64,000 nt of DNA from Chondrosia reniformis (lineage: Eukaryota > Porifera > Demospongiae > Chondrillida > Chondrillidae). A program made the translations under genes and the position numbers. How positions within the stretch are numbered: position 1 is the stretch's first letter; the number at the start of each line of letters is the position of its first letter. Where the stretch lies: contig OX359191.1 of the NCBI GenBank assembly GCA_947172415.1, forward strand, positions 6,696,001 to 6,760,000, given 5' to 3'. This document shows, in pieces, positions 2,093 to 61,419 of this stretch. The notes beneath the pieces are model-generated. The model saw nothing but the letters and a program-made list of their open reading frames with translations, was not told the DNA's origin and did no database searches.

Positions 2093-5523
<3,431 letters not shown>

Positions 5524-10382: not shown

Positions 10383-13300
10383 ATCTTGAAGGTATCTTTT
10401 TCTTCTCTGTTCTGCTTGATTCCCGTGGAGAAGGTCAGTGAGGTTGTGAATACATTTGCTGACCAAATTCTATCTGAAGAGACACAGAAAGACAAGAATG
10501 CTCCAATCAAAATCAAAATGTGAGTTACCACTTCATCCACCTTACACTGCTTGATTGGGTAGCTTTCCTTATATGGACAGACATACGTATTTCCATATTT
10601 GGTGTTGTGTCTTATAAAGGGTTTGTCATAAGGTCTTGTACCTGTCTACTGAACCAATGCATCCATTTATTGTATAAATAACCCCACGATTAAGAGAGAG
10701 CTAAGGATCTTGGGATTCAAAGAAGAACTGCCAGAAAGATTCCTAGGGTCACTGATGAAGGGTGGTGTTCCCAGAAACAGCTGTCTGGCCCAGTGTATTA
10801 ACCAAATAAATAAATAAAGACTCCTGTATCCTCATCCAAAGCTCTTACTAGGTTTAGCTTCCTATAGGCTTTCCGATTTATAACAGAATAGACATAGCAT
10901 GTAGGAAAGTGGTGTATTAGATTATTCATGGACTATTCAAGTGTTGCGACATTATCACAACCTAGCTATATAGAGAGAAGGTTGATCTGGTAACTGGACG
11001 GGAAACAGCTCTTTCTAGTATATCACCATTATAATGTGTATTCAGTTAATTCTGGTTTTGTTTTGTGTTATTCCTATGGAAAGTTAGCTACGTAGGTGAA
11101 TTGTAACTTTCATGTGTACGTACACTACATGCCTATTAAATGTAGTATATTTGTATGTAGTTGTATTAGTCAGTAGTTTAATTCCCCTTTCAGATTGAAC
11201 CTGTTTTACATTCACTTTGAGAATGGGGACACTCACAAGTTTGGGTTGCTGATAAAGAGAGTCAACTATGCAGTACACTTCAAGTTAGGAATGTTGCTGA
11301 ATGTCGACCAGTCAAAGGTAGGTATGGCATGCTTAAGTTGAAGCAACATAAACATGGCCGTCAAAAGGTTTGGTTTAATATTTTATTGCACTAATAGCAA
11401 TTCAATGGAACTTCAATTAATTAGCAAATCAGATGTTCATAAAATTAATATACCTGTATATTGTATTACTAGGTTAAATAGTACAAAATTGTCAGATTTG
11501 ACTGATTATGATGGGAATGTCGCCTTTTAGCTAAATTCTCAACTGAAACAGGTGTGCTGAAGTGTTTTATGGCAAATTTCAAACCTTCAATTTATTATAT
11601 TTGTAGTAGAATTGTGAATTTTCAAACTAGGGAAAGAATTATATTTTTAGTTGAATTGTGCAACAAATCGACCTGTTGTGACATTCTACTGTATAATTGT
11701 TCTAACAACACAACTTTACAAGCTAAACTTAATACTGAAATATCTCTCATGTCTTCCCCTCACACCCAACCACTCACAGCAGTGTATGTTCCATCCTTTA
11801 GGCTTCTCAGTGGGTGAAGCAGTGTAGGTGCACTCCCCCTCAGAAGAGGGAGCTGTACAAGGCTCTCTGGGAGGTCTACCACTTACACCACAGAAGGTGA
11901 GCAGTGATGCTCTATATAGTTCAGTTTTGTTGGTAAACAAGTCTTATTTATGTCACACTTGCTTGTACTATGCTAGTCTACCCATCCTTACACTGCCACT
12001 TTACTCTCTTTTCATCTCCATCCTCAGTCTTGCTGCCGCCTTCCTTGTTGAATCTGTCAAAACTCTAACTGATGAAGATGCTGCAAGTGGAGCTGAACTT
12101 ACGCGTCTCTCCATCACAGAGGCCCTCATGGACAAGCAACAGTACGTGTTTGATGACCTGCTCAACCTGCCGGCCATGAAGGCCATCACTGCAGAACCAC
12201 TACATGAGGTGGGTGGAATGTTACCATGACAACCAAGTCATACTTTCTTTAAGTGTTTTGATTAAATTTGATTATTTTATTGCTGAAAGTTTGGCTACGT
12301 CGACGTCCCTATGGCAATAGCATATTTAATTCATCTGTACTCAGTAATATATACAGTACGTTTTGGGTCGGTTGTCCAGACCAGATGTTGCAATTGGTAA
12401 CTCGCAACTACCATTTGAACAAGCATTCCCACTCGAATGACGTCACCATGCATGCGACGATAAGCTTTTACGATTACCGATTGCAATGTCCTGTCTGGAC
12501 AACCGACCCAAAAAGTACTGTAATACATAAAAGATAAAGGATACATGTTTATGCATTTATTTTTGCATTTCTTCTGTAGCTGTTAAAAATATTTGTTTCT
12601 GGCAAATTAACTGATTTTAAAGCATTTCTAGTGAAAAATAGTCAGTTATTTGATTCTACAGGTACAGTGATTGCCTGCATTAGTATCCTAGGTAACGCCA
12701 TGGTAACCATACCCTCTCCAATTGTGTGTTCAGGACTAGATGTACAAGTGCTGACAAAAAAGATGCAGCTGTTAACACTAACGTCAATGGCAACTACAAG
12801 AAGCGAGATTGACTTCTCTTTGGTTGAGAGAGAGTTGGACATTGAACCTGCTTCAGTTGATAGTACAGTCATCGAAGGTACAGCTAACGCTTTTGAATGT
12901 ACATATTTGTAGAGTTAGTGTGTTATTGCATTCGCTTGTTCATATAGCTGTTTGTTTGAAATTGATGACAGCCAAAGTTGATCAAATTAACAAGAAAATT
13001 GTTGTCAGGTAGAAAGTATAGCATATCACAATACACACGTTCTTTGTTTAGTTTGTCCTCAAACTCCTCTTAGTTCATGTGATTAACCTGAACTAACCTA
13101 ACCTCCTTGAGGGACAGCTGTAGAGTGTCCCAAAGGGTTGGCATTTCTTTTTGGCCTTCCTTTATCAATTTGACCTTATATCCATTATTCACCATATTTA
13201 AAAACATTTTGGCTCTTATACAGAAGTGCACCATTGTCATGGCAATAGGTTATCACATGTAGCTGAACAGGAAGCTGTATTTTAATTGTCTTACTACTTT

Positions 13301-13799: not shown

Positions 13800-16700
13800 A
13801 TGGCGAGAAGCATGAATGAAGACCCAAACCTTTCAGGTAAGAGAACGAATGAATGTAGCTAATACTTAGTCAGAGAACGAATGAACTAATACTTACTGCA
13901 GTCAGATCAGTTGTTTTTCTGTCACCAGAAAAGAGTTTACCATCAAATATAGAATATAGATAGATGTTTAGACAAGCTCTATTAGCTATATAGTGTTGAG
14001 GTTATAAGGAGATCTTGTTAGGTAACTCGAATAAGTTCCACATTACTTTTGCAAACTTTTACTAATGACGTACTGACTAAATTGTACTTTTAGATAATTG
14101 TATTCGTTCCAACATTCTTCCGTGCCGTGCATCTATGAAAATAATGAAAGTTACGCTAACCTTCCTAGATATCTAAGTGTATTGGAGATGTAACACATTT
14201 CCGACCTTAAGGCTTTGAAGGAGGTGCTAAAATGTGTTTTGATTGCAATATGTTGTCATAATCGAATGAATGTTTGCTAGTTTTGATTTAGTTGCTTCAT
14301 GTAATTCTGTCTTCTCCTCCATTCCTGAATTGAATACATCATTGCAATGGAACAATAGACCGTGAGTGTCTGTTTAATGTGAATTACAGTGAAGCACATT
14401 GTGTAGTAATTGACTACCTACGTATATAGCAACATGTAATTTGTGAATGTGTCTCTGAGATGTTCACTTTACTAATGAATATGTTTTGATTGCAAGATGT
14501 TGTCATAATTGAATGAATGTTCGCTAGTATTGATTTAGTTGCTTCATGTATACTTCTGTCTTCTCCTCCATTCCTGAATTGAATACATCATTGCAATGGA
14601 ACAATAGACCGTGAGTGTCTGTTTAATGTGAATTACAGTGAAGCACATTGTGTAGTAATTGACTACCTACGTATATAGCAACATGTAATTTATGAATGTG
14701 TCTCTGAGATGTTCATTTTACTAATGAATATGTTTTGATTACTATATGTTGTCATAATTGAATGAATGTTTGCTAGTATTGATTTAGTTGCTTCATGTAT
14801 ACTTCTGTCTTCTCCTCCATTCCTGAATTGAATACATCATTGCAATGGAATAATAGACCGTGAGTATCTGTTTAATGTGAATTATAGTGAAGCACATTGT
14901 GTAGTTATTGACTACCTACGTATATAGCAACATGTAATTTGTAAATGCGTCTTTGAGATGTTCACTTTATATACTAATGAATATGTTTTGATTGCAAGAT
15001 GTTGTCATAATTGAATGAATGTTTGCTAGTATTGATTTAGTTGCTTCATGTATACTTCTGTCTTCTCCTCCATTCCTGAATTGAATATATACATCATTGC
15101 AATGGAACAGTTAAACGTAAGTGTCTGTTTAATGTAAATTATAGTTAAGCACATTGTGTAATAATTGACTGCCTTCGTATATAGCAACATGTAATTTGTG
15201 AAAGTGTCTCTGAGATGTTCACTTTATTAATAAATATATTTTAATTACAAGATGTTGTCATAATTGAATGAATGTTTGCTAGTATTGATTTAGTTGCTTC
15301 ATGTATACTTCTGTCTTCTCCTCCATTCCTGAATTGAATACATCATTGCAATGGAACAGTTGAAAGTGAGTGTCTGTTTAATGTGAATTATAGTGAAGCA
15401 CATTGTGGAGTAATTGAGTACCTACGTATATAGCAACATGTAATTTGTGAATGTGTCTCTGAGATGTTCACTTTACTAATGAATATGTTTTGATTGCAAA
15501 TTGTTGTCATAATCAAATGAATGTTTGCTAGTATTGATTTAGTTGCTTCATGTATACTTCTGTCTTCTCCTCCATTCCTGAATTGAATATATACATCATT
15601 GCAATGGAACAGTTGAAAGTGAGTGTCTGTTTATAATGTGAATTCACATTGTGTAGTAATTGACTGCCTTCGTATATAGCAACATGTAATTTGTGAATGT
15701 GTCTCTGAGATGTTCACTTTACTAATGAATGTATTTTAATTACAAGATGTTGTCATCAAATGAATGTTTGCTAGTATTGATTTAGTTGCTTCATGTATAC
15801 TTCTGTCTTCTCCTCCATTCCTGAATTGAATACATCATTGCAATGGAACAATAGACTGTGAGTGTCTGTTTAATGTGAATTATAGTGAAGCACATTGTGT
15901 AGTAATTGACTACCTACGTATATAGCAACATGTAATTTATGAATGTGTCTCTGAGATGTTCACTTTACTAATGAATATGTTTTGATTACTATATGTTGTC
16001 ATAATTGAATGAATGTTTGCTAGTATTGATTTAGTTGCTTCATGTATACTTCTGTCTTCTCCTCCATTCCTGAATTGAATACATCATTGCAATGGAATAA
16101 TAGACCGTGAGTATCTGTTTAATGTGAATTATAGTGAAGCACATTGTGTAGTTATTGACTACCTACGTATATAGCAACATGTAATTTGTAAATGCGTCTT
16201 TGAGATGTTCACTTTATATACTAATGAATATGTTTTAATTACAAGATGTTGTCATAATTGAATGAATGTTTGCTAGTATTGATTTAGTTGCTTCATGTAT
16301 ACTTCTGTCTTCTCCTCCATTCCTGAATTGAATACATCATTGCAATGGAACAATAGGGCGTGAGTATCTGTTTAATGTGAATTATAGTGAAGCACATCAT
16401 GTAGTAATTGACTACCTACGTATATAGCAACATGTAATTTGTGAATGTGTCTCTGAGATGTTCACTTTATTAATGAATATGTTTTGATTACTATATGTTG
16501 TCATAATTGAATGAATGTTTGCTAGTATTGATTTAGTTGCTTCATGTATACTTCTGTCTTCTCCTCCATTCCTGAATTGAATACATCATTGCAATGGAAC
16601 AATAGACCGTGAGTGTCTGTTTAATGTGAATTACAGTGAAGCACATTGTGTAGTAATTGACTACCTACGTATATAGCAACATGTAATTTATGAATGTGTC

Positions 16701-19700
16701 TCTGAGATGTTCACTTTACTAATGAATATGTTTTGATTACTATATGTTGTCATAATTGAATGAATGTTTGCTAGTATTGATTTAGTTGCTTCATGTATAC
16801 TTCTGTCTTCTCCTCCATTCCTGAATTGAATACATCATTGCAATGGAATAATAGACCGTGAGTATCTGTTTAATGTGAATTATAGTGAAGCACATTTTGT
16901 AGTTATTGACTACCTACGTATATAGCAACATGTAATTTATGAATGTGTCTCTGAGATGTTCATTTTACTAATGAATATGTTTTGATTGCAAGATGTTGTC
17001 ATAATTGAATGAATGTTTGCTAGTATTGATTTAGTTGCTTCATGTATACTTCTGTCTTCTCCTCCATTCCTGAATTGAATATATACATCATTGCAATGGA
17101 ACAGTTAAACGTAAGTGTCTGTTTAATGTAAATTATAGTTAAGCACATTGTGTAATAATTGACTGCCTTCGTATATAGCAACATGTAATTTGTGAAAGTG
17201 TCTCTGAGATGTTCACTTTATTAATAAATATATTTTAATTACAAGATGTTGTCATAATTGAATGAATGTTTGCTAGTATTGATTTAGTTGCTTCATGTAT
17301 ACTTCTGTCTTCTCCTCCATTCCTGAATTGAATACATCATTGCAATGGAACAGTTGAAAGTGAGTGTCTGTTTAATGTGAATTATAGTGAAGCACATTGT
17401 GGAGTAATTGAGTACCTACGTATATAGCAACATGTAATTTGTGAATGTGTCTCTGAGATGTTCACTTTACTAATGAATATGTTTTGATTGCAAATTGTTG
17501 TCATAATCAAATGAATGTTTGCTAGTATTGATTTAGTTGCTTCATGTATACTTCTGTCTTCTCCTCCATTCCTGAATTGAATATATACATCATTGCAATG
17601 GAACAGTTGAAAGTGAGTGTCTGTTTATAATGTGAATTCACATTGTGTAGTAATTGACTGCCTTCGTATATAGCAACATGTAATTTGTGAATGTGTCTCT
17701 GAGATGTTCACTTTACTAATGAATGTATTTTAATTACAAGATGTTGTCATCAAATGAATGTTTGCTAGTATTGATTTAGTTGCTTCATGTATACTTCTGT
17801 CTTCTCCTCCATTCCTGAATTGAATACATCATTGCAATGGAACAATAGACTGTGAGTGTCTGTTTAATGTGAATTATAGTGAAGCACATTGTGTAGTAAT
17901 TGACTACCTACGTATATAGCAACATGTAATTTATGAATGTGTCTCTGAGATGTTCACTTTACTAATGAATATGTTTTGATTACTATATGTTGTCATAATT
18001 GAATGAATGTTTGCTAGTATTGATTTAGTTGCTTCATGTATACTTCTGTCTTCTCCTCCATTCCTGAATTGAATACATCATTGCAATGGAATAATAGACC
18101 GTGAGTATCTGTTTAATGTGAATTATAGTGAAGCACATTGTGTAGTTATTGACTACCTACGTATATAGCAACATGTAATTTGTAAATGCGTCTTTGAGAT
18201 GTTCACTTTATATACTAATGAATATGTTTTAATTACAAGATGTTGTCATAATTGAATGAATGTTTGCTAGTATTGATTTAGTTGCTTCATGTATACTTCT
18301 GTCTTCTCCTCCATTCCTGAATTGAATACATCATTGCAATGGAACAATAGGGCGTGAGTATCTGTTTAATGTGAATTATAGTGAAGCACATCATGTAGTA
18401 ATTGACTACCTACGTATATAGCAACATGTAATTTGTGAATGTGTCTCTGAGATGTTCACTTTATTAATGAATATGTTTTGATTACTATATGTTGTCATAA
18501 TTGAATGAATGTTTGCTAGTATTGATTTAGTTGCTTCATGTATACTTCTGTCTTCTCCTCCATTCCTGAATTGAATACATCATTGCAATGGAACAATAGA
18601 CCGTGAGTGTCTGTTTAATGTGAATTACAGTGAAGCACATTGTGTAGTAATTGACTACCTACGTATATAGCAACATGTAATTTATGAATGTGTCTCTGAG
18701 ATGTTCACTTTACTAATGAATATGTTTTGATTACTATATGTTGTCATAATTGAATGAATGTTTGCTAGTATTGATTTAGTTGCTTCATGTATACTTCTGT
18801 CTTCTCCTCCATTCCTGAATTGAATACATCATTGCAATGGAATAATAGACCGTGAGTATCTGTTTAATGTGAATTATAGTGAAGCACATTTTGTAGTTAT
18901 TGACTACCTACGTATATAGCAACATGTAATTTATGAATGTGTCTCTGAGATGTTCATTTTACTAATGAATATGTTTTGATTGCAAGATGTTGTCATAATT
19001 GAATGAATGTTTGCTAGTATTGATTTAGTTGCTTCATGTATACTTCTGTCTTCTCCTCCATTCCTGAATTGAATATATACATCATTGCAATGGAACAGTT
19101 AAACGTAAGTGTCTGTTTAATGTAAATTATAGTTAAGCACATTGTGTAATAATTGACTGCCTTCGTATATAGCAACATGTAATTTGTGAAAGTGTCTCTG
19201 AGATGTTCACTTTATTAATAAATATATTTTAATTACAAGATGTTGTCATAATTGAATGAATGTTTGCTAGTATTGATTTAGTTGCTTCATGTATACTTCT
19301 GTCTTCTCCTCCATTCCTGAATTGAATACATCATTGCAATGGAACAGTTGAAAGTGAGTGTCTGTTTAATGTGAATTATAGTGAAGCACATTGTGGAGTA
19401 ATTGAGTACCTACGTATATAGCAACATGTAATTTGTGAATGTGTCTCTGAGATGTTCACTTTACTAATGAATATGTTTTGATTGCAAATTGTTGTCATAA
19501 TCAAATGAATGTTTGCTAGTATTGATTTAGTTGCTTCATGTATACTTCTGTCTTCTCCTCCATTCCTGAATTGAATATATACATCATTGCAATGGAACAG
19601 TTGAAAGTGAGTGTCTGTTTATAATGTGAATTCACATTGTGTAGTAATTGACTGCCTTCATATATAGCAACATGTAATTTGTGAATGTGTCTCTGAGATG

Positions 19701-22700
19701 TTCACTTTACTAATGAATGTATTTTAATTACAAGATGTTGTCATCAAATGAATGTTTGCTAGTATTGATTTAGTTGCTTCATGTATACTTCTGTCTTCTC
19801 CTCCATTCCTGAATTGAATACATCATTGCAATGGAACAATAGACTGTGAGTGTCTGTTTAATGTGAATTATAGTGAAGCACATTGTGTAGTAATTGACTA
19901 CCTACGTATATAGCAACATGTAATTTATGAATGTGTCTCTGAGATGTTCACTTTACTAATGAATATGTTTTGATTACTATATGTTGTCATAATTGAATGA
20001 ATGTTTGCTAGTATTGATTTAGTTGCTTCATGTATACTTCTGTCTTCTCCTCCATTCCTGAATTGAATACATCATTGCAATGGAACAATAGATGGTGAGT
20101 ATCTGTTTAATGTGAATTATAGTGAAGCACATTGTGTAGTTATTGACTACCTACGTATATAGCAACATGTAATTTGTAAATGCGTCTTTGAGATGTTCAC
20201 TTTATATACTAATGAATATGTTTTAATTACAAGATGTTGTCATAATTGAATGAATGTTTGCTAGTATTGATTTAGTTGCTTCATGTATACTTCTGTCTTC
20301 TCCTCCATTCCTGAATTGAATACATCATTGCAATGGAACAATAGGGCGTGAGTATCTGTTTAATGTGAATTATAATGAAGCACATTGTGTAGTTATTGAC
20401 TACCTACGTATATAGCAACATGTAATTTGTGAATGTGTCTCTGAGATGTTCACTTTACTAATGAATATGTTTTGATTGCAAGATGTTGTCATCAAATGAA
20501 TGTTTGCTAGTATTGATTTAGTTGCTTCATGTATACTTCTGTCTTCTCATCCATTCCTGAATTGAATACATCATTGCAATGGAACAATAGGGCGTGAGTA
20601 TCTGTTTAATGTGAATTATAGTGAAGCACATTGTGTAATAATTGACTGCCTTCGTATATAGCAACATGTAATTTGTGAAAGTGTCTCTGAGATGTTCACT
20701 TTATTAATAAATATGTTTTAATTACAAGATGTTGTCATAATTGAATGAATGTTTGCTAGTATTGATTTAGTTGCTTCATGTATACTTCTGTCTTCTCATC
20801 CATTCCTGAATTGAATACATCATTGCAATGGAATAATAGACCGTGAGTGTCTGTTTAATGTGAATTATAGTGAAGCACATTGTGTAGTAATTGACTACCT
20901 ACGTATATAGCAACATGTAATTTGTGAATGTGTCTCTGAGATGTTCACTTTACTAATGAATGTGTTTTGATTGCAAGATGTTGTCATAATTGAATGAATG
21001 TTTGCTAGTATTGATTTAGTTGCTTCATGTATACTTCTGTCTTCTCCTCCATTCCTGAATTGAATATATACATCATTGCAATGGAACAGTTGAAAGTGAG
21101 TGTCTGTTTAATGTGAATTATAGTGAAGCACATTGTGGAGTAATTGACTACCTACGTATATAGCAACATGTAATTTGTGAATGTGTCTCTGAGATGTTCA
21201 CTTTACTAATGAATATGTTTTGATTACTATATGTTGTCATAATTGAATGAATGTTTGCTAGTATTGATTTAGTTGCTTCATGTATACTTCTGTCTTCTCC
21301 ATTCCTGAATTGAATATATACATCATTGCAATGGAACAATAGCCCGTGAGTGTCTGTTTAATGTGAATACTTTATACATAATGACAATATAAAGCACTTT
21401 CTGTAGTTACTCTCTGTTTAATAGTTTGTGGGTGTGACATTGACTTTTTTTCCTGTAAATGTTTTCAAAATGTCCTGTATTGTTAATGTTTTTGTTATTA
21501 TTCGTTTTTTCCCAAAAAAGTTGTACGTATATTCTAATATATTTTAGTTACTTCATGTATTTTGTATGTTAAATAAATACTCTTAAAATATCATTGCAAT
21601 TGAACAACAATGGTCATGTTACATATACATACGTATATGTACAACATAATCAAAAGTATATGGAGCTTTTTAGTTTTCACTGCTAAAGTGTAAGCTAATA
21701 TTTTATATCTCATTGTTACATTGTTAGTCTTACGTGAAAGACCAAAGAAGGAATATTTGGATGATCTGGTGGTACCTCATTTGAGCAATGATTGGAATGA
21801 AGTTGGAGCTAACCTTGATATCCAGGGACCTGTTTTAGGAAGAGTCAAACGGGAGCATCACAACATTCCAGAGAAATGTGCCAGCAACATGTTTGATGAG
21901 TGGCTGGAGCATTCTCCAGGGACAGGAAGAAAGGAGAGAACATGGAAGACTGTACTCACTTCACTGAGAGACAGTGGAAGAGAAGACATTGTGGAAAATG
22001 TAACTGACCATTTCACATGGGAAGGAATTATAAGTAAGCAACAATATACTACGTACATATAATATATCATATCTTGTGATGTTGTTAATTGTAGTCGTAG
22101 TACACACACACAGTTTGTGTATATAAATATGACTGATATACATACGTATCAGTACATACATGTTTATTGTGAAATATCAGCTAGTGCACAAAGCCTAACA
22201 TATTATTTCAAACTTAAACCTAATAGCACAATCTCCTCCCTCCACACATACATAAGGACATTCTTATACTTAAATATAAGGGGTGATGAATGAGATGCCA
22301 AATAAAGCTGACCTCAGGAGCCTCGTGATCCAGCAGATAGCAAGGATGTGGAGGGCAGTGGGTCGGCTCTTGGGAATCAGTAGCTCCACTCTGAAATACA
22401 TTGAGGAGAGAGTGAAAGGAGACACACTCCAAGCCAGTCAGTTGATGTTTGACCTGTGGCTGAATGGGGCTGAGGGCACGGGAGACGAGAAGCGTACATG
22501 GTGTACTATCATCAGAGCTCTGGTACAAAGTGGCCTCTCTGGTCTAGCTGAGGATGTTGTTCATGAGTTGTGCCCTGAAACTGCACAGGACTTGAAAATG
22601 ACTGCAATTAGTTAGTGATTTGATCTTCTTATAATATGAGTGTCTCATGATAATAATAAAGCTATTGGCAGAGATCACTTTACACTGTTTTCCATCTCTC

Positions 22701-24065: not shown

Positions 24066-25194
24066 AAAATCTAATACACCATTTTCCTACATGCTATGCC
24101 TACTCGGTAAAAAAGCCTACTGTATAGGGAACTAAACTTGGAGAGAGCTTGTATCTACGTATGTAGCCTGCTTTAAAATTGTTCGTTACCTTCGCTAGGA
24201 GCTAAAAGCATCTCTCCTTGGTTCAACTCAGTGATTATTTCTCTTACACCTTTCCCGCTTAGAATACTTGTGTTTGCTTATCACTTCATTCATTAATACA
24301 CTATCTAAACATTACCCCTGCTTTATTAATGCCATTGTTATAAATCATCTCTTGATAGGTACGTATGTAATTATTCATTTGTAGCTACATATTGTACATA
24401 TTGTACATGCATACAACTGCACTTGTTAGTAAAGATTTTATATATGTCTGTATAGCATATAATATGTAAGAGATAACTAGTACATTAAAGGTGAGGACTA
24501 TAGCCAACGTATGATCCAAGGGCGAGGTGGAGTACATTTATATTTCAGCCAAAGTCCAAACCTCTGGACTATATACTATTACATACGTACATGTATATTT
24601 GGTACATACATACGTAGACAGTGTAGCATTGAATAGATCTAAGATCAAGAGCAGATCTTAAAGCTCGGGTGTCATCATCATTGGAGTCTGGATCGTTTGG
24701 GAGTACTTATTAGCAGGGTCTTCCATCGTATGCCATACTGATGAGTCCTAATAAGGACCAAACAGCTGTCTATGACTCGACCATCTTTTTGAGTGGCTAG
24801 GGGGAGACGCTGTTTCCCATTAAGTGATCTTCGGTTCCACACATTAGCTCATTGAGTTCCTCAGGAGACATGAGTGGGTGGGGTAAATCCAAAGTCCAAT
24901 AATGATGACAGTAGCTATATACTTTGCAAATTTAAAAGATGCATCTGTTTTTGTGAGTAGTACTTATATACGTACTTAAACTTTGTATGTAGTTCTAAAG
25001 GATAATACTCACAATGCAAAACTGCTGGCGCCGTGGCCAACTACTGGCAGGCATGAATGAGTAGAGTAAGTAGTACTATGTATATGGATCAGTGTGATGG
25101 TGATATTACATGAAGTTCCATTCTTATTCTTAGCGTTGCTACATGCAGAGGTTGTGCACTTTTTGTAAACTATTAAAACTTCAAACTCGTGTGA
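24066..25194. other. Intergenic stretch without recognisable gene
   Basis: Between the death-domain gene stop and a PTGR relic. It contains a reversed copy of the SINE-like tail near 24115-24155 (GGGAACTAAACTTGGAG) and the hammerhead-like motif at 24734-24774. I see no exons supported by homology or splice phase. Confidence 0.5.
24734..24774 (+). ncRNA. Hammerhead-ribozyme-like motif, one core substitution
   Basis: Stem I CAUA (24734-24737) pairs with UAUG (24771-24774). Core CUGAUGA at 24738-24744, stem II GUCC (24745-24748) with GGAC (24755-24758) closing a 6-nt loop, stem III ACAG/CUGU (24762-24769), cleavage triplet GUC ending at 24770. The expected GAAA reads CAAA (24759-24762), a change at a catalytic G. 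The GUCC/GGAC stem and tiny palindromic stem III match the minimal hammerheads known from animal Penelope-like elements and retrozymes. Confidence 0.55.
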
Positions 25195-28424: not shown

Positions 28425-33280
<4,856 letters not shown>

Positions 33281-36744: not shown

Positions 36745-38236
36745 TTATTTAAGTTGAGTAACTTGCACATGCTGTGTTTGCAGACCTTCATATTCCTTCT
36801 TCTGCTTGGCAACAAACAACATGGCTTCCACTCGTTTGGTGTCCTCTGGTGTAAGGCCATTGGTCAGAGCAGCATACCATTCATGATCTACTTGTGCAAT
36901 CTCTACTCATCGGAGAGAAGAAAGTAAAAGGAAGAAATATGTACTAGTAACCTTTCCAATTCTAACCCGAAACCAAATGTTCAAAAATGAATTCAAAAAG
37001 TGTATTAACAATTTATAGTCAGTCGTATTAGGTGAACACATATATATACTCTAAAAAGAATGGTTAGAGTGTATTTTGGAACACTTCTAGTTGCACCTAA
37101 TGAAGTTATGTCCATACATATATACACTGTACATCATATTGTGGTAGATAATTATTAGAGTGTCAGCATTACTTATTGAATGGGTTTGAACGTTTCGACC
37201 CTTCATCAGGTCTTCATCAGCAATCACCAAAATAATTATCAATGCCAATAATCACAACAGCTATCCCTTATCGTTACACATACTCAATATTGAACAGACA
37301 AAACTGACTGATAAAGTCCTCCTATTAGCATGTATCTCACAACTACACTACAATTCCTACACTAGTTACTACACTAGTAAACTACAATAGTTTAAGATAT
37401 GTAGGCCTCTCAAATGCCACAAACCACAATGTAAACACTTTGTCTGGTGAGGACTATCTTGCTATTGTTTCGTTGAAAACAATGTACTCATATATTCCAC
37501 AATCATCATCATCAATCCAGGTTTCAAAATCAACTTCCAACATCAGATCAGCATAGGGATTGATGTCCGGATCAGACAGCTTGCTCAAGGCATCTACAGC
37601 CTGGCATCAGAGAGATGACGGTAATATTCCAATGTCAGAATAATATATTAGTTTAGAAAAATACAAGTAATTCAGTCACTGAGGAAGACTCTAAGGGTTG
37701 AAACATTCAACTTCTAAAAAATCATTACTAACTGCATCTCTATAGGCGCACTCAAAGTTCAAAAGATGAACTACTCAAAAGGTAATTAGAATTGATATTT
37801 CAAAGAGTATTTTTTACTAGTTACGTAAAACCACTAAATCATGTTTTGCATGTGCATGTGTGCCAAGGATTCACAGAAGATCAAGATAAAGAAAAAGACA
37901 AAGACTCCCAGGATCACTGATGAAGGGTGGAATTCCCAGAAACGGCTGTCTGACCCAGTGAAGAAGAAGATGAAAGAAGGGAAAAGAAGGAAGAAAAGAC
38001 TCCTGTATCTTCATTCAAAGCTCTCTTCAGGTTTAGTTCCCCTATAGGCTCTTTTACAGAATAGGCATATAGCATGTAGGAAAATGGTATCTTAGATTTT
38101 TCATGTACGTAGATAATTGTTTTTGTATATTTTAGCTCTATATGTACGTACCTTTTCCTTTAATTTTTGCAGATCAATGTCTCCTTTCTCTTCCTCTAAT
38201 TCATCTTACTCAGAATCCTCTTCCTCTCTAGCCAAA
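36745..38236 (-). pseudogene. Importin-7/8 3'-terminal pseudogene fragment (exons 24-26)
   Basis: Copies of three terminal exons with clear lesions. The exon 25 donor is changed from GTTAGT to GATAGT (near 37457). Exon 24 has lost one base near its acceptor and gained a TAA where the parent reads GAGGAAGAT (CTTCCTCAG became CTTACTCAG, near 38208). Exons 25 and 26 remain otherwise open. No upstream importin exons follow; a 43-bp minisatellite begins instead. Confidence 0.8.
37911..37956 (+). ncRNA. Hammerhead-like motif in SINE-like repeat
   Basis: GGAUCA (37911-37916) faces UGACCC (37951-37956) with one mismatch. Core CUGAUGA 37917-37923, GAAA 37939-37942, stem III now ACGG/CUGU, GUC ending at 37950. 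The element is absent from the parental importin intron (43.5-43.6 kb), so it inserted after duplication. Tail words AAGCTCT, GGTTTAG and CCTATAGGC follow to about 38100. Confidence 0.45.
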
Positions 38237-58017: not shown

Positions 58018-61000
58018 TTACCATGCATTGGTGAGCAAGATAAGGTTCTGAATGGCAGTCAGGGTTGATTGCCCATTTTGACCTGTGATGACGTGCTGGT
58101 CCACCACAACATGTACAGACTCCAATCTGCCAGCTACATGATATGGGAGGGGGGCAGGATATAGTTGATGAGACCAGACACCAAGCTGTAACTAACGGTT
58201 AAAGTTGCCTCCATGTTGTCTGATAAAGTCTGGTGTAATCACAGGGATCTCCCCAAACTCTAGCAGCAAACTTAGCTCATGAAGAGACGGCTACATGCAA
58301 TAAAATTGAAATGTATACACAAAACCAGAGGCAAAGGAGTTGAATGTAAAGTTAGGGCTAGTCCCATGGGGAATGTGGCAATATGTTAGAGGAAGCTCTA
58401 GCAACCAGTAGTAGGAGCTTGGTTCGATCCAGGAGGAGGAGAAACACAAAGTTACAATAGCATACATATTTATCATATAGTGTGATCTATTCAAACACCC
58501 ACTCCTGTCATACAATACTTCCTGAAACACCACTTCTTTTTGTTGTCATCAGAAAAGGCTGAGCAGAGACCAGTAACTCCATAACCAATAGCACATATGG
58601 GCTCTAAATAATGCAAACCACAAGTGTTTTAATCTTTAAACCACAGTAACTTTATCTTATATGCTTACTCTTAGCCTCCACAAAATGTACAAGTATCTTA
58701 TTGAGCCCGTGGCTATTGTGCAAGTCAAACAAGGCACCTCGTCCATGTGTCAGGAGGATTGCCGTATAAAGTGAGGCTGCAGAGATACAAGAGGTGATGT
58801 AATCCAAATTAGGTTAACCTAGTCAGTATCCTTAGCTTTATAGGCAGGGTTTTTTAGGAAATTTCAGGGGGGGGAATGTTTCGAGAAATAGAGGGGGTCA
58901 TAGGTTGGAGCTAAAATACATAAATTAATGAACTTTGCTACAAGCTCAGGGGAGGGGGGCAAAACCACTTTCAGGGGGGCAGGGTTTCTTAAACCCCCTA
59001 AAAAGCCCTCAAGAGCTGGCTGCAGGAAACCATAGTTTGGTGTTTTAGACTATTCAGGTACATTCAGGTACACTTACGTACAACTGAAGCAGGAGAGAGA
59101 TCCTGATAAGTAGTGATGCTGAGGATAAGCCATGTGGTTACACACCAGTGGAACCAAGTAACTTATAGAGAGGAAATGTGCAATTAAAACTCTGTATAGC
59201 CGTATTATAGCAGCACTATTATTGTTTAACAAGAACTAAAATGTACGGTACCCAAGGAGTACTTGTTAACCAGTTAACCAGTTTCCACAGTATATGATTT
59301 GAAAGAAAAGTTAAAACAAGCCTTTTTCATGACATATCCCAACTTAAATGTACGAATTGCATATGTACGTTAAGTGTGTAATCTGGAACTATATCCTCGT
59401 CAACAGACCCTAAGGCTAGACATCTTATGCAAATCACTTTAAACAGTTGCCTTTGAGGAAGAAACCTTCATTGCTATACTTCTTCTAATATTTAACCAAT
59501 TATTTTCCTAGTAAATCCTTAATGAAATAATACTGTACCTTTGAAGTGATAAAGTCATCATTTAGCTCATGCTAATTGAAGCATAAAACAATTTTTGCCC
59601 ATGATTAAACTACAGTGACAAGCTGTCCAGAGAACATTATAATGTCAGAGAATTATCATGAAGCCACAAATACAAAATTGATAACCAATCAAATTAGACC
59701 TAGATACAACTACAGTTACAAATATCACACCTACACTTGCACTGATCCCACTGAGTTCAGTTTATCATTACAAGGATCTCTGAGATAGCACTGTTACAGA
59801 GCAAAATATTTCATAACAGGATTAAAACCTTGCCAACAATCACCCTTGCCAACAATCACCCTTGACAACCACCCACCATATTCTGTTAGAAAGCCAGACT
59901 CCCATTGAATCACACTTATATACATACCTCAGCTACGTATAAAGTTTGAGGTATGATAAATGCACACAGATGGTGGATTGATTGCGCAATGCTCTACAGC
60001 CCTATGACTGAGGATATACCCATTATTATTATTATTAAAGTGCCCATGCATATTATATATATGTAAGCTATTGCTACACAGGTGATGTACATATGTACGT
60101 ACATTTAAAGTGTTCCCCTGTATATATACGTACTATTAGAGAATTTAGATGTAATAGAGTTGCTACGTATATGTTGTATAATTACTATTTCAAAAGTCTG
60201 GGTTACTTGGTAACTTAGTGACACTAGAATGCTACCCAGTGCTACTGATGAGGAGTGGTATTCTCTGAAAAGCCTTCTAGCACAGTAACATAGATGATAT
60301 CAAAGCTTTAACATCATCTTTGGATCTTAAAGTCCCCCATTTTCTATTCATGTATGCAGCCATGCAAACCATCAAATAGGTAGGCAGTTCATAAGTGTGG
60401 CAGTCCAAATGTCTATATATGTACAGAATATATGTATGTATGTATGTACAAGTATGTATTCGACATTCCCAACAGGTCTCATAAGCAATATCATTACTTT
60501 AAAAGTAAATATCAATTTTGAAATCAATTAAATGGTAAAATATTTGGTTCATTCTTCTCAAACCAATCACAGAAATATCTATCATAAGCTCATAGTTCAG
60601 AGAGAGATAACAGTCTCACGTTTCAGTCAAATACATATTCAATACATCAATCAAAATAACTTGACCTTCATAATATCAATACAACCTGGTAGCTATGAAA
60701 ATATTTGTGATTACTACATAAAATAATCATTATTCAAGGATTCAACAAATATCTCATTTAAACTGAGAAAGCCTCTAGCTAGCCAATGGCTATTATTCTA
60801 GGTTTCCAGTGTAACATAGAATGAGGAGATGAAAAGTGAGCATACATAATTATGATGAGGGAATAAAGATAAAATCATGTGGTACCATTAACTTCTTCAA
60901 GACTGATGGGCCTGGAGAGGGGTCTTGCCTTGAAGTCAGATAACCATCTCATTGTTTTTTCTGTTCTGTCATCACCATCTTGAAACTTTAGGGCTACGCC

Positions 61001-61419
61001 TCCTGGGGTTGCTATGGTTACATTGAAGGTTGAGGACGTGAGCGTAAAAGCTTGCATAAAGGATCCTAAGTGTACACCTACAGCGACCACATGAAATAAA
61101 TATACACAGTGAAAGGATCACATCACCACTTCTCCGTTTAAATCGTAGATGGTTATGTCAACATGACATAAATATTATGTATTCGGTTTTTACTCATACG
61201 ATGAACAATAATCACATAATGGACATAATAGAAAAGCAGTGCCATGTTTTGCTCCAGTGATTTGTTGTGAAACTTTAGGTACAACATATATAACAGTAAG
61301 CAAATTGTGGCTCTGAACTTTTGAATCACATCAAGTTGAAGTGAATACGTAAGCGAACACTTGCACTTACCTTTTTCATGCGCGCTAGCCACAATCAAGC
61401 AAGACTTTCTTTCTTCCAT
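58018..61419 (-). CDS. GATD1: GATD1-like (Parkinson disease 7 domain-containing 1), DJ-1/PfpI fold
   Basis: Six exons in phase: 61371-61419, 60886-61077, 58669-58776, 58503-58603, 58197-58290, 58018-58133; 219 aa (human GATD1 about 220). Landmarks: VASAHEKGV, FNVTIATPGG, GALFDLHNS, KPICAIGYG with the nucleophile-elbow Cys of the DJ-1/PfpI superfamily, CMTGPSLHEL, and DQHVITGQNGQST near the C-terminus. The human protein has GHG where this one has GYG after the Cys, so a conserved His is replaced by Tyr. The family's biochemical function is not well established. Intron 2 is 2.1 kb and contains the best hammerhead-like motif (60239) and a possible MITE near 58845-59010. The start codon lies 63 bp from that of the divergent L27-like gene. 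Confidence 0.88.
58845..59010. mobile_element. Possible MITE with AGGGTTTTTTAGG-type inverted ends
   Basis: GGGTTTTTTAGGAAA at the left and its approximate reverse complement (CCCTAAAAAGCCC) at the right, with G-rich subterminal runs (GGGGGGG) mirrored inside. Lies in the GATD1 intron. Target duplication not determined. Confidence 0.4.
60239..60283 (+). ncRNA. Hammerhead-ribozyme motif with intact core
   Basis: Stem I GUGCUA (60239-60244) pairs perfectly with UAGCAC (60278-60283). Core CUGAUGA at 60245-60251, stem II GGAG (60252-60255) with CUCU (60263-60266) around a 7-nt loop, GAAA at 60267-60270, a very short stem III AAG/CUU (60270-60272 and 60274-60276) with a 1-nt loop, and cleavage triplet UUC ending at 60277. 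All invariant hammerhead nucleotides I can check are present. Such a short stem III normally needs a dimeric arrangement to cleave well. Located in the GATD1 long intron, opposite strand. Confidence 0.6.

Follow-up and report, generated by a model that had tools for sequence, protein, structure and literature searches.

What is a hammerhead ribozyme doing inside an intron of a sponge gene, on the strand opposite to that gene? The question is raised by a stretch of 64,000 nucleotides from Chondrosia reniformis (GenBank assembly GCA_947172415.1, contig OX359191.1, positions 6,696,001 to 6,760,000 of the forward strand; hereafter "the window"). From the letters of this stretch alone, a hammerhead with an intact catalytic core had been predicted and interpreted as either a retrozyme or a fragment of a Penelope-like element in an intron of GATD1, possibly transcribed from the opposite strand. 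Three minus-strand frames (Table 1), when joined, matched GATD1 (Glutamine amidotransferase-like class 1 domain-containing protein 1; PDB 8a3p, E 1.5e-24), and a Pfam search of five frames around the site gave no domain. Since the plus-strand hammerhead is flanked on either side by GATD1 frames of the minus strand, the ribozyme is intronic and antisense, and the placement originally predicted is upheld.

Table 1. Hammerhead, retrozyme fragments and GATD1 frames at the site (positions in the window; u, position on the unit)
Feature	Position	Strand	Remarks
Type I hammerhead, stem I to stem I'	60239..60283	+	predicted cleavage C60277/T60278
Stem I 5' strand GUGCUA	60239-60244	+	
Core CUGAUGA (C3-A9)	60245..60251	+	invariant across 30 aligned sequences (columns 17-23)
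Stem-loop II GGAG-UGGUAUU-CUCU	60252..60266	+	
G12 A13 A14, tiny stem III AA-GCC-UU, H17 = C	60267..60277	+	
GAA	60267-60269	+	then AAGCCUU, C at 60277
Stem I' UAGCAC	60278-60283	+	
Outer stem I 5' strand UACC	60233..60236	+	partner GGUA absent, AACA instead
Truncated retrozyme family A copy	60101..60286 (approximate)	+	about u165-u348 of the 341-nt unit, 80% to the L015 unit
Family C-like fragment	60293..60343	+	87% to two places in L008; directly after the family A fragment
Open frame with GATD1 exon, upstream side of intron	60875..61117	-	positions are those of the frame
Open frame with GATD1 exon, downstream side of intron	58652..58813	-	
Open frame with further GATD1 exon	58491..58628	-	

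All predicted parts of the motif (CUGAUGA, GAAA, a 6-bp stem I, a 4-bp stem II and a UUC site) were recovered with the same sequence and coordinates, and the predicted cleavage site agrees with the core positions. Hammerhead cores follow a consensus with its own position numbering; C3-A9, G12-A14, A15.1-U16.1 and H17 are all present in the window copy, and the open helix is stem I. Stem I comprises 6 bp, stem II 4 bp including a core-proximal G-U, and stem III 2 bp (AA/UU) with a loop of 3 nt. The G10.1-C11.1 pair beside the core is conserved in hammerheads; it is G-U in the window copy and G-C in 22 of 30 aligned copies. A scan with a type I descriptor found 60239-60283 as the single site in the window, and in 40 Markov-1 random windows the descriptor averaged 0.075 loose hits per window, none of them resembling that of the window. 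The motif pattern had no match in 100 shuffles. An Rfam scan of the window returned no match at the gathering score, RF00163 was absent from 59700-60900 at E<=10, and minimum-energy folding did not favour the hammerhead fold over shuffled sequences (z 0.31 and -0.42). A family-specific covariance model, R1, scored the window copy at 69.9 bits, this copy being one of the sequences included in R1 itself.

The genome searched comprised 117,379,552 bases in 15 contigs. With 60190-60330 as query, 41 matches including the query itself were obtained, and 30 loci cut from these matches, the window copy included, make up the set for family A. A 33-nt core pattern allowing up to three mismatches gave 115 genome matches versus 0 for the reversed pattern, and the pattern CTGATGAN{8,24}GAAAN{3,10}TMTAGCAC gave 79 versus 0 when read backwards. 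The main differences between subfamilies lie in stem II, with GGAG/CUCC, GUGG/CCAC and AUGG/CCAU found among the relatives, and at H17, which is C in families A and D and A in family B. The relatives have an extended stem I and a 3-bp stem III, unlike the minimal hammerheads of Penelope-like elements.

Pairing was counted on a 30-row alignment of families A, B and D; a 43-row alignment mixing A, B, D and C was left out. In the 30 hammerheads 96.7% of cells pair, versus 34-51% with the partner strand slid. Four pairs are altered on both sides (three in stem II, one in outer stem I), and no both-side changes occur in inner stem I or stem III among the 30 copies. None of 500 shuffles reached the observed count of changed cells or the covariation score; 19 of 500 reached the count of pairs changed on both sides and 95 of 500 that of further pair types. 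Judged from this alignment, compensatory changes are present in stem II and in outer stem I; since the 30 copies are paralogues of one genome, these changes amount to few events. At the level of sequence, 60239-60283 on the plus strand is confirmed as a real type I hammerhead with an intact core. A chance resemblance, for which the failed Rfam match and the missing energy advantage over shuffles might be cited, is refuted by the existence of the family, with 79 and 115 genome matches against none in the controls, compensatory changes and nothing window-like in 40 random windows, and can be regarded as virtually excluded.

A search with the Rfam type I hammerhead model had been proposed as the check that could refute the motif. 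This check yields a false negative here: the window gives no match, yet the family is real. The model (RF00163, Hammerhead_1) shares the core, the strand order and the open stem I with our families. On the genome it gave 65 matches at E<=0.001, 51 of them above the cut-off, and it found family C (37.1 bits, gathering 34); families A, B and D were missed at E<=10 in all four loci scanned (L016, L048, L087 and L010). A stock Rfam model can thus overlook whole families of animal hammerheads.

The window copy is a partial monomer lacking the remainder of the 341-nt unit. When 60190-60330 is compared with the family, homology often begins near 60101 and ends at 60284-60286, and most genome matches to 59850-60200 and 60287-60640 were short. 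Because it ends at 60286, the copy no longer has outer stem I (UACC/GGUA). The family has a loop II that is mostly UGGUAUU and an internal loop in stem I; the outer helix is gone in the window copy. Stem III, AAGCCUU, is one G shorter than the self-complementary AAGGCCUU of most relatives, a loss common to the window copy and L011. The best flank match is only 5 bp long, with no duplication of at least 9 bp. The predicted hammerhead holds for the core, which is intact, and not for the rest of the copy, which is decayed in outer stem I, stem III and the core-proximal pair.

An intact core in an intron could suggest that GATD1 has recruited the copy for active antisense regulation or as a site of processing. 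Against this stand its position on the strand opposite to GATD1, its truncation, the damaged stem III and the missing outer stem I, and we find such a role hardly credible. Judged by its sequence, the copy in the window most probably survives as an inert relic that cleaves itself weakly if at all and plays no part in GATD1. The fragment directly downstream (Table 1) resembles family C, a second retrozyme-like family with direct dimers 348-355 nt apart. Another family C hammerhead lies in the window at 24736-24772 (+), where G12 is changed to C (GAAA to CAAA), and is presumably dead.

The structure of the complete element can be read from better preserved copies. L015 carries two hammerheads in direct order 341 nt apart, which gives a family A unit of 341 nt in the form of a tandem dimer; in family B one pair gives a unit of about 331 nt. 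Placed on a doubled unit, L018, L021 and L030 run for about one full turn, from u57-60 to u399-408, and then reach flanking sequence. L034 and L035 cross the u401/u60 junction and end at u512, which is +171 from the cleavage site; the copies crossing the junction are L015, L034 and L035. Few tandem copies were seen among the loci examined.

Could the site instead derive from an autonomous Penelope-like element, as a fragment with the hammerhead of its pLTR, and not be a retrozyme at all? GIY-YIG matches are plentiful in this genome, with at least 150 at E<=0.01, not all of which need be Penelope-like. Locus L099 (C13:5113600-5117600) contains a 715-aa frame with RVT_1 (E 7.9e-10) and a C-terminal GIY-YIG domain (E 1.9e-4; 22.1 bits versus a cut-off of 22.6). 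Locus L101 (C1:4319050-4320250) has an open stretch of 399 aa with GIY-YIG near its start, and no reverse transcriptase inside the part examined. The core pattern of a further set of hammerheads, family E, had 2,526 genome matches (up to three mismatches) versus 0 for the reversed pattern, and at three of the five GIY-YIG matches listed on contig C1 an exact family E match lies 588-609 nt upstream on the same strand. From the sequences, the domain order of L101 together with the upstream family E hammerheads suggests a domain-permuted group of Penelope-like elements, known as Naiad, and two domain orders of Penelope-like elements may coexist in this genome.

The abundance of GIY-YIG matches, the many family E hammerheads, the resemblance of some of them to family A (50.5 and 49.2 bits to R1) and their placement upstream of GIY-YIG matches on C1 would all suit a Penelope fragment. 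In sharp contrast, L018, L021 and L030 reach their flanks after about 341 nt, a unit too short for a reverse transcriptase. Frames of at least 200 aa occur in only 4 of the 30 family A loci (3.1 kb each); they encode CAP-Gly, laminin EGF, a product with no Pfam domain and, about 700 bases off on the other strand, a reverse transcriptase. Comparison of L015 and L009 with L099 gave no match better than E 0.44. We regard a Penelope fragment as decidedly improbable. Membership in the Penelope-like elements, with a frame for reverse transcriptase and GIY-YIG inside the element, was likewise rejected for the 341-nt unit.

Several other features of these sequences may be recorded here. The reverse transcriptase frame just mentioned (L015:2-748, plus strand, 249 aa, RVT_1 E 5.3e-27) is cut by the edge of the locus. 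Family E copies occur in the window itself on the plus strand at 37901-37964 (50.5 bits with R1), 10736-10799 (49.2 bits), 31980-32047 (39.5 bits) and 4222-4279 (22.9 bits); by eye, the pair beside the core is an A-A mismatch in each of the four, and the copy at 4222 is missing the 5' strand of stem I. On inspection by eye, the motifs at 37679 and 43417 (+) and at 37220 and 9819 (-) resemble Penelope-type hammerheads of the minimal form; two of these lie within duplicated DNA, in direct order and 5.7 kb from each other. In positions 1-41765, tandem segmental duplications, mostly 91-96% identical, hold six long minus-strand frames, which by eye make up five copies of a RING/TRAF-like gene, and 14231-21368 is occupied by a long tandem array that repeats about every 250 bases.

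The ends of the copies are more informative. By BLAST, 21 of the 30 family A loci have their 3' end at +55 to +67 past the cleavage site and two at +171; another four end at +47 to +53 and three earlier (the window copy at +7, L010 at +14 and one locus at +26). No family A locus ends at the cleavage site itself (0 of 30), the window copy and L010 coming nearest. The family B set consists of 21 of the 30 loci L039-L068 plus L079, overlapping loci and members of other families having been dropped. With the reference L061 left out, 17 of 21 family B loci have an end at +40 to +45, and the other four at +30, +51, +51 and +62. The 5' ends vary among copies.

Exact flank matches of at least 9 bp, as expected of target duplications, were found at 11 of the 30 family A loci (9-16 bp) versus 1.5% of 870 mismatched pairs, and at 6 of 22 family B loci (11-20 bp, L061 included) versus 0.65% of 462 mismatched pairs; 19 of 30 family A loci and 16 of 22 family B loci are without such a match. 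Seven family A loci (L016, L017, L019, L028, L029, L031 and L038) have a common right flank, and five of the seven share both flanks, which means few independent events. In L017, L019, L028, L029 and L038 (for the right flank also L016 and L031) we probably see an old insertion that was multiplied inside a larger repeat.

A SINE-like element, with a linear transcript from about u60 to about u401 and the hammerhead as a mere passenger, would require neither circle nor multimer. Full copies from u57-60 to u399-408, about one turn, are what such a transcript would give. This scenario is contradicted by L034 and L035, which are bounded by duplications of 16 and 12 bp, cross u401/u60 and end at +171, by the direct dimer in L015 and the direct dimers of family C, and by the compensatory changes in stem II and outer stem I. 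We consider it improbable.

Our data thus favour the retrozyme. The family shows the features by which non-LTR retrozymes are recognised: a non-coding unit within about 150-450 nt, one hammerhead, a tandem form and duplications longer than 4 bp. Of the two identities in the original prediction, the retrozyme is supported, because the site belongs to a dispersed family that is non-coding, has a unit of 341 nt and shows a tandem dimer, copies that cross the junction, duplications and compensatory changes; the Penelope fragment is not. Furthermore, a self-cut linear monomer would end at the cleavage site, and none of the 30 family A loci does, so that the junction of the template was probably joined, in a circle or in a multimer. 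Copies that cross the junction would be expected equally from a multimeric or uncleaved transcript as from a circle. With a probability of roughly 80%, we read the site as a decayed, truncated remnant of a non-autonomous non-LTR retrozyme of family A whose template had its junction joined. Circles, transcription and cleavage of the family RNA we infer from the genomic copies.

A further set of scars is found at the 5' side. An inverted match to the left of the main part was detected at 7 of 30 family A loci, six of which score above the shuffled maximum of 35; the seventh, L022, scored 32 and is under this maximum. In five of the six clear cases the outer end lies within 6 nt of a site at which forward copies end (+171 or +60). 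These outer ends are u174 in L010, u169 in L014, u165 in L024, u166 in L033 and u401 (= +60) in L034, the last reading +66 on the doubled unit; the inverted piece of L027 ends at u110, with a weak extra match to u153. This comparison of outer ends was made post hoc, with the pattern already seen. In family B, both outer ends lie at +45 in L051, L054 and L056, of which L054 and L056 may be one event; L039 has its outer ends at +75 and +45, and the dimer in L079 is more complex. Wherever two hammerheads on opposite strands lie within 500 bases of each other, the order is minus-then-plus (nine of nine cases, from 100 of the 115 places). No same-strand pair within 500 bases occurs among those 100 places, the direct pairs of L015 and L079 having a member outside the set.

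LINEs show duplications of 9-20 bp, 5' truncation and inversion. All three are present here, and L015 has an RVT_1 frame nearby. The inverted pieces could consequently stem from twin priming of the LINE type, and a LINE instead of a Penelope-like element would then move the retrozymes. Random internal annealing, however, does not lead one to expect outer ends at the forward 3' sites, as found in five of six family A pieces and in L051, L054 and L056, and, by eye, the 3' ends inspected carry no evident poly-A tail. LINE mobilization therefore appears unlikely to us.

The Penelope-like alternative can be laid out as a life cycle of the retrozyme. RNA of a unit or multimer would cleave itself at the hammerhead, and the monomer would be ligated into a circle. 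A Penelope-like protein would cut both strands of the target, and reverse transcription would start at fixed internal sites, at about +60 in family A and at +40 to +45 in family B, with +171 as a second site in family A. Synthesis of cDNA would pass through the rejoined cleavage site and often stop early, leaving a truncated 5' end; where both strands are primed, two cDNAs would meet head to head and produce an inverted 5' piece. We give even odds to the claim that the scars record such Penelope-type internal initiation on circular RNA, with starts about 40-67 or about 171 nt past the junction and both strands primable.

By analogy, fixed starts past the hammerhead, 5' truncation and priming of both strands would fit the behaviour of the anole Penelope-like element in vitro. 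There, the protein is described as using two internal initiation sites and as cleaving and extending both strands, and hammerhead cleavage as unnecessary for insertion (PMC11167929). Penelope-like elements are named as strong candidate movers of animal retrozymes by Cervera and de la Pena 2020 (PMC7229834), and the review PMC7761336 describes animal retrozyme repeats as carrying no conserved motif that would reveal an autonomous partner. Our search likewise found no recognition sequence common to the retrozymes and a Penelope-like element; it is the positions of the insertion ends, not a shared motif, that point to a Penelope-like mechanism. If true, a Penelope-like protein would be the machinery that moves animal retrozymes, and the rejoined ribozyme junction would be used as template. 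The window copy alone is ordinary, and the interest lies in the insertion-end pattern of its family.

How does the sponge family compare with known systems? Plant LTR retrozymes are similarly non-autonomous, carry a hammerhead and follow a circular RNA model, but they are described with type III hammerheads, LTRs and 4-bp duplications (PMC7229834, PMC7761336), none of which were seen here. From Penelope-like elements, family A differs in being non-coding and in having an extended stem I and a 3-bp stem III, as opposed to the minimal hammerheads reported for those elements (PMC7761336). Its putative start sites lie about 110 nt apart, compared with an optional tail of 30-40 bp described for Penelope elements (PMC11167929). 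The likeness to the Penelope-like PAc of the anole, as portrayed in the same work, lies in two internal starts of reverse transcription downstream of the hammerhead, in the cutting and extension of both strands, and in tandem and partly tandem copies (PMC11167929).

The family is of a known kind, the non-LTR retrozyme. Sponges are unmentioned in the main text of PMC7229834, and the titles and abstracts among the records listed contained nothing on sponge retrozymes, which is no proof of their absence from print. The metazoan non-LTR retrozymes reported in that paper are RNAs of 170-400 nt, a range to be set beside 341 nt in family A, about 331 nt in the family B pair and 348-355 nt in family C. 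Like the sponge family, they carry a type I hammerhead, are low in G+C, occur in tandem, show no LTR, have duplications of more than 4 bp and share their genome with GIY-YIG elements (PMC7229834). Compared with that account, the retrozymes described here show few tandem copies, reside in a sponge host and have recurrent 3' ends and inverted outer ends that could be mapped.
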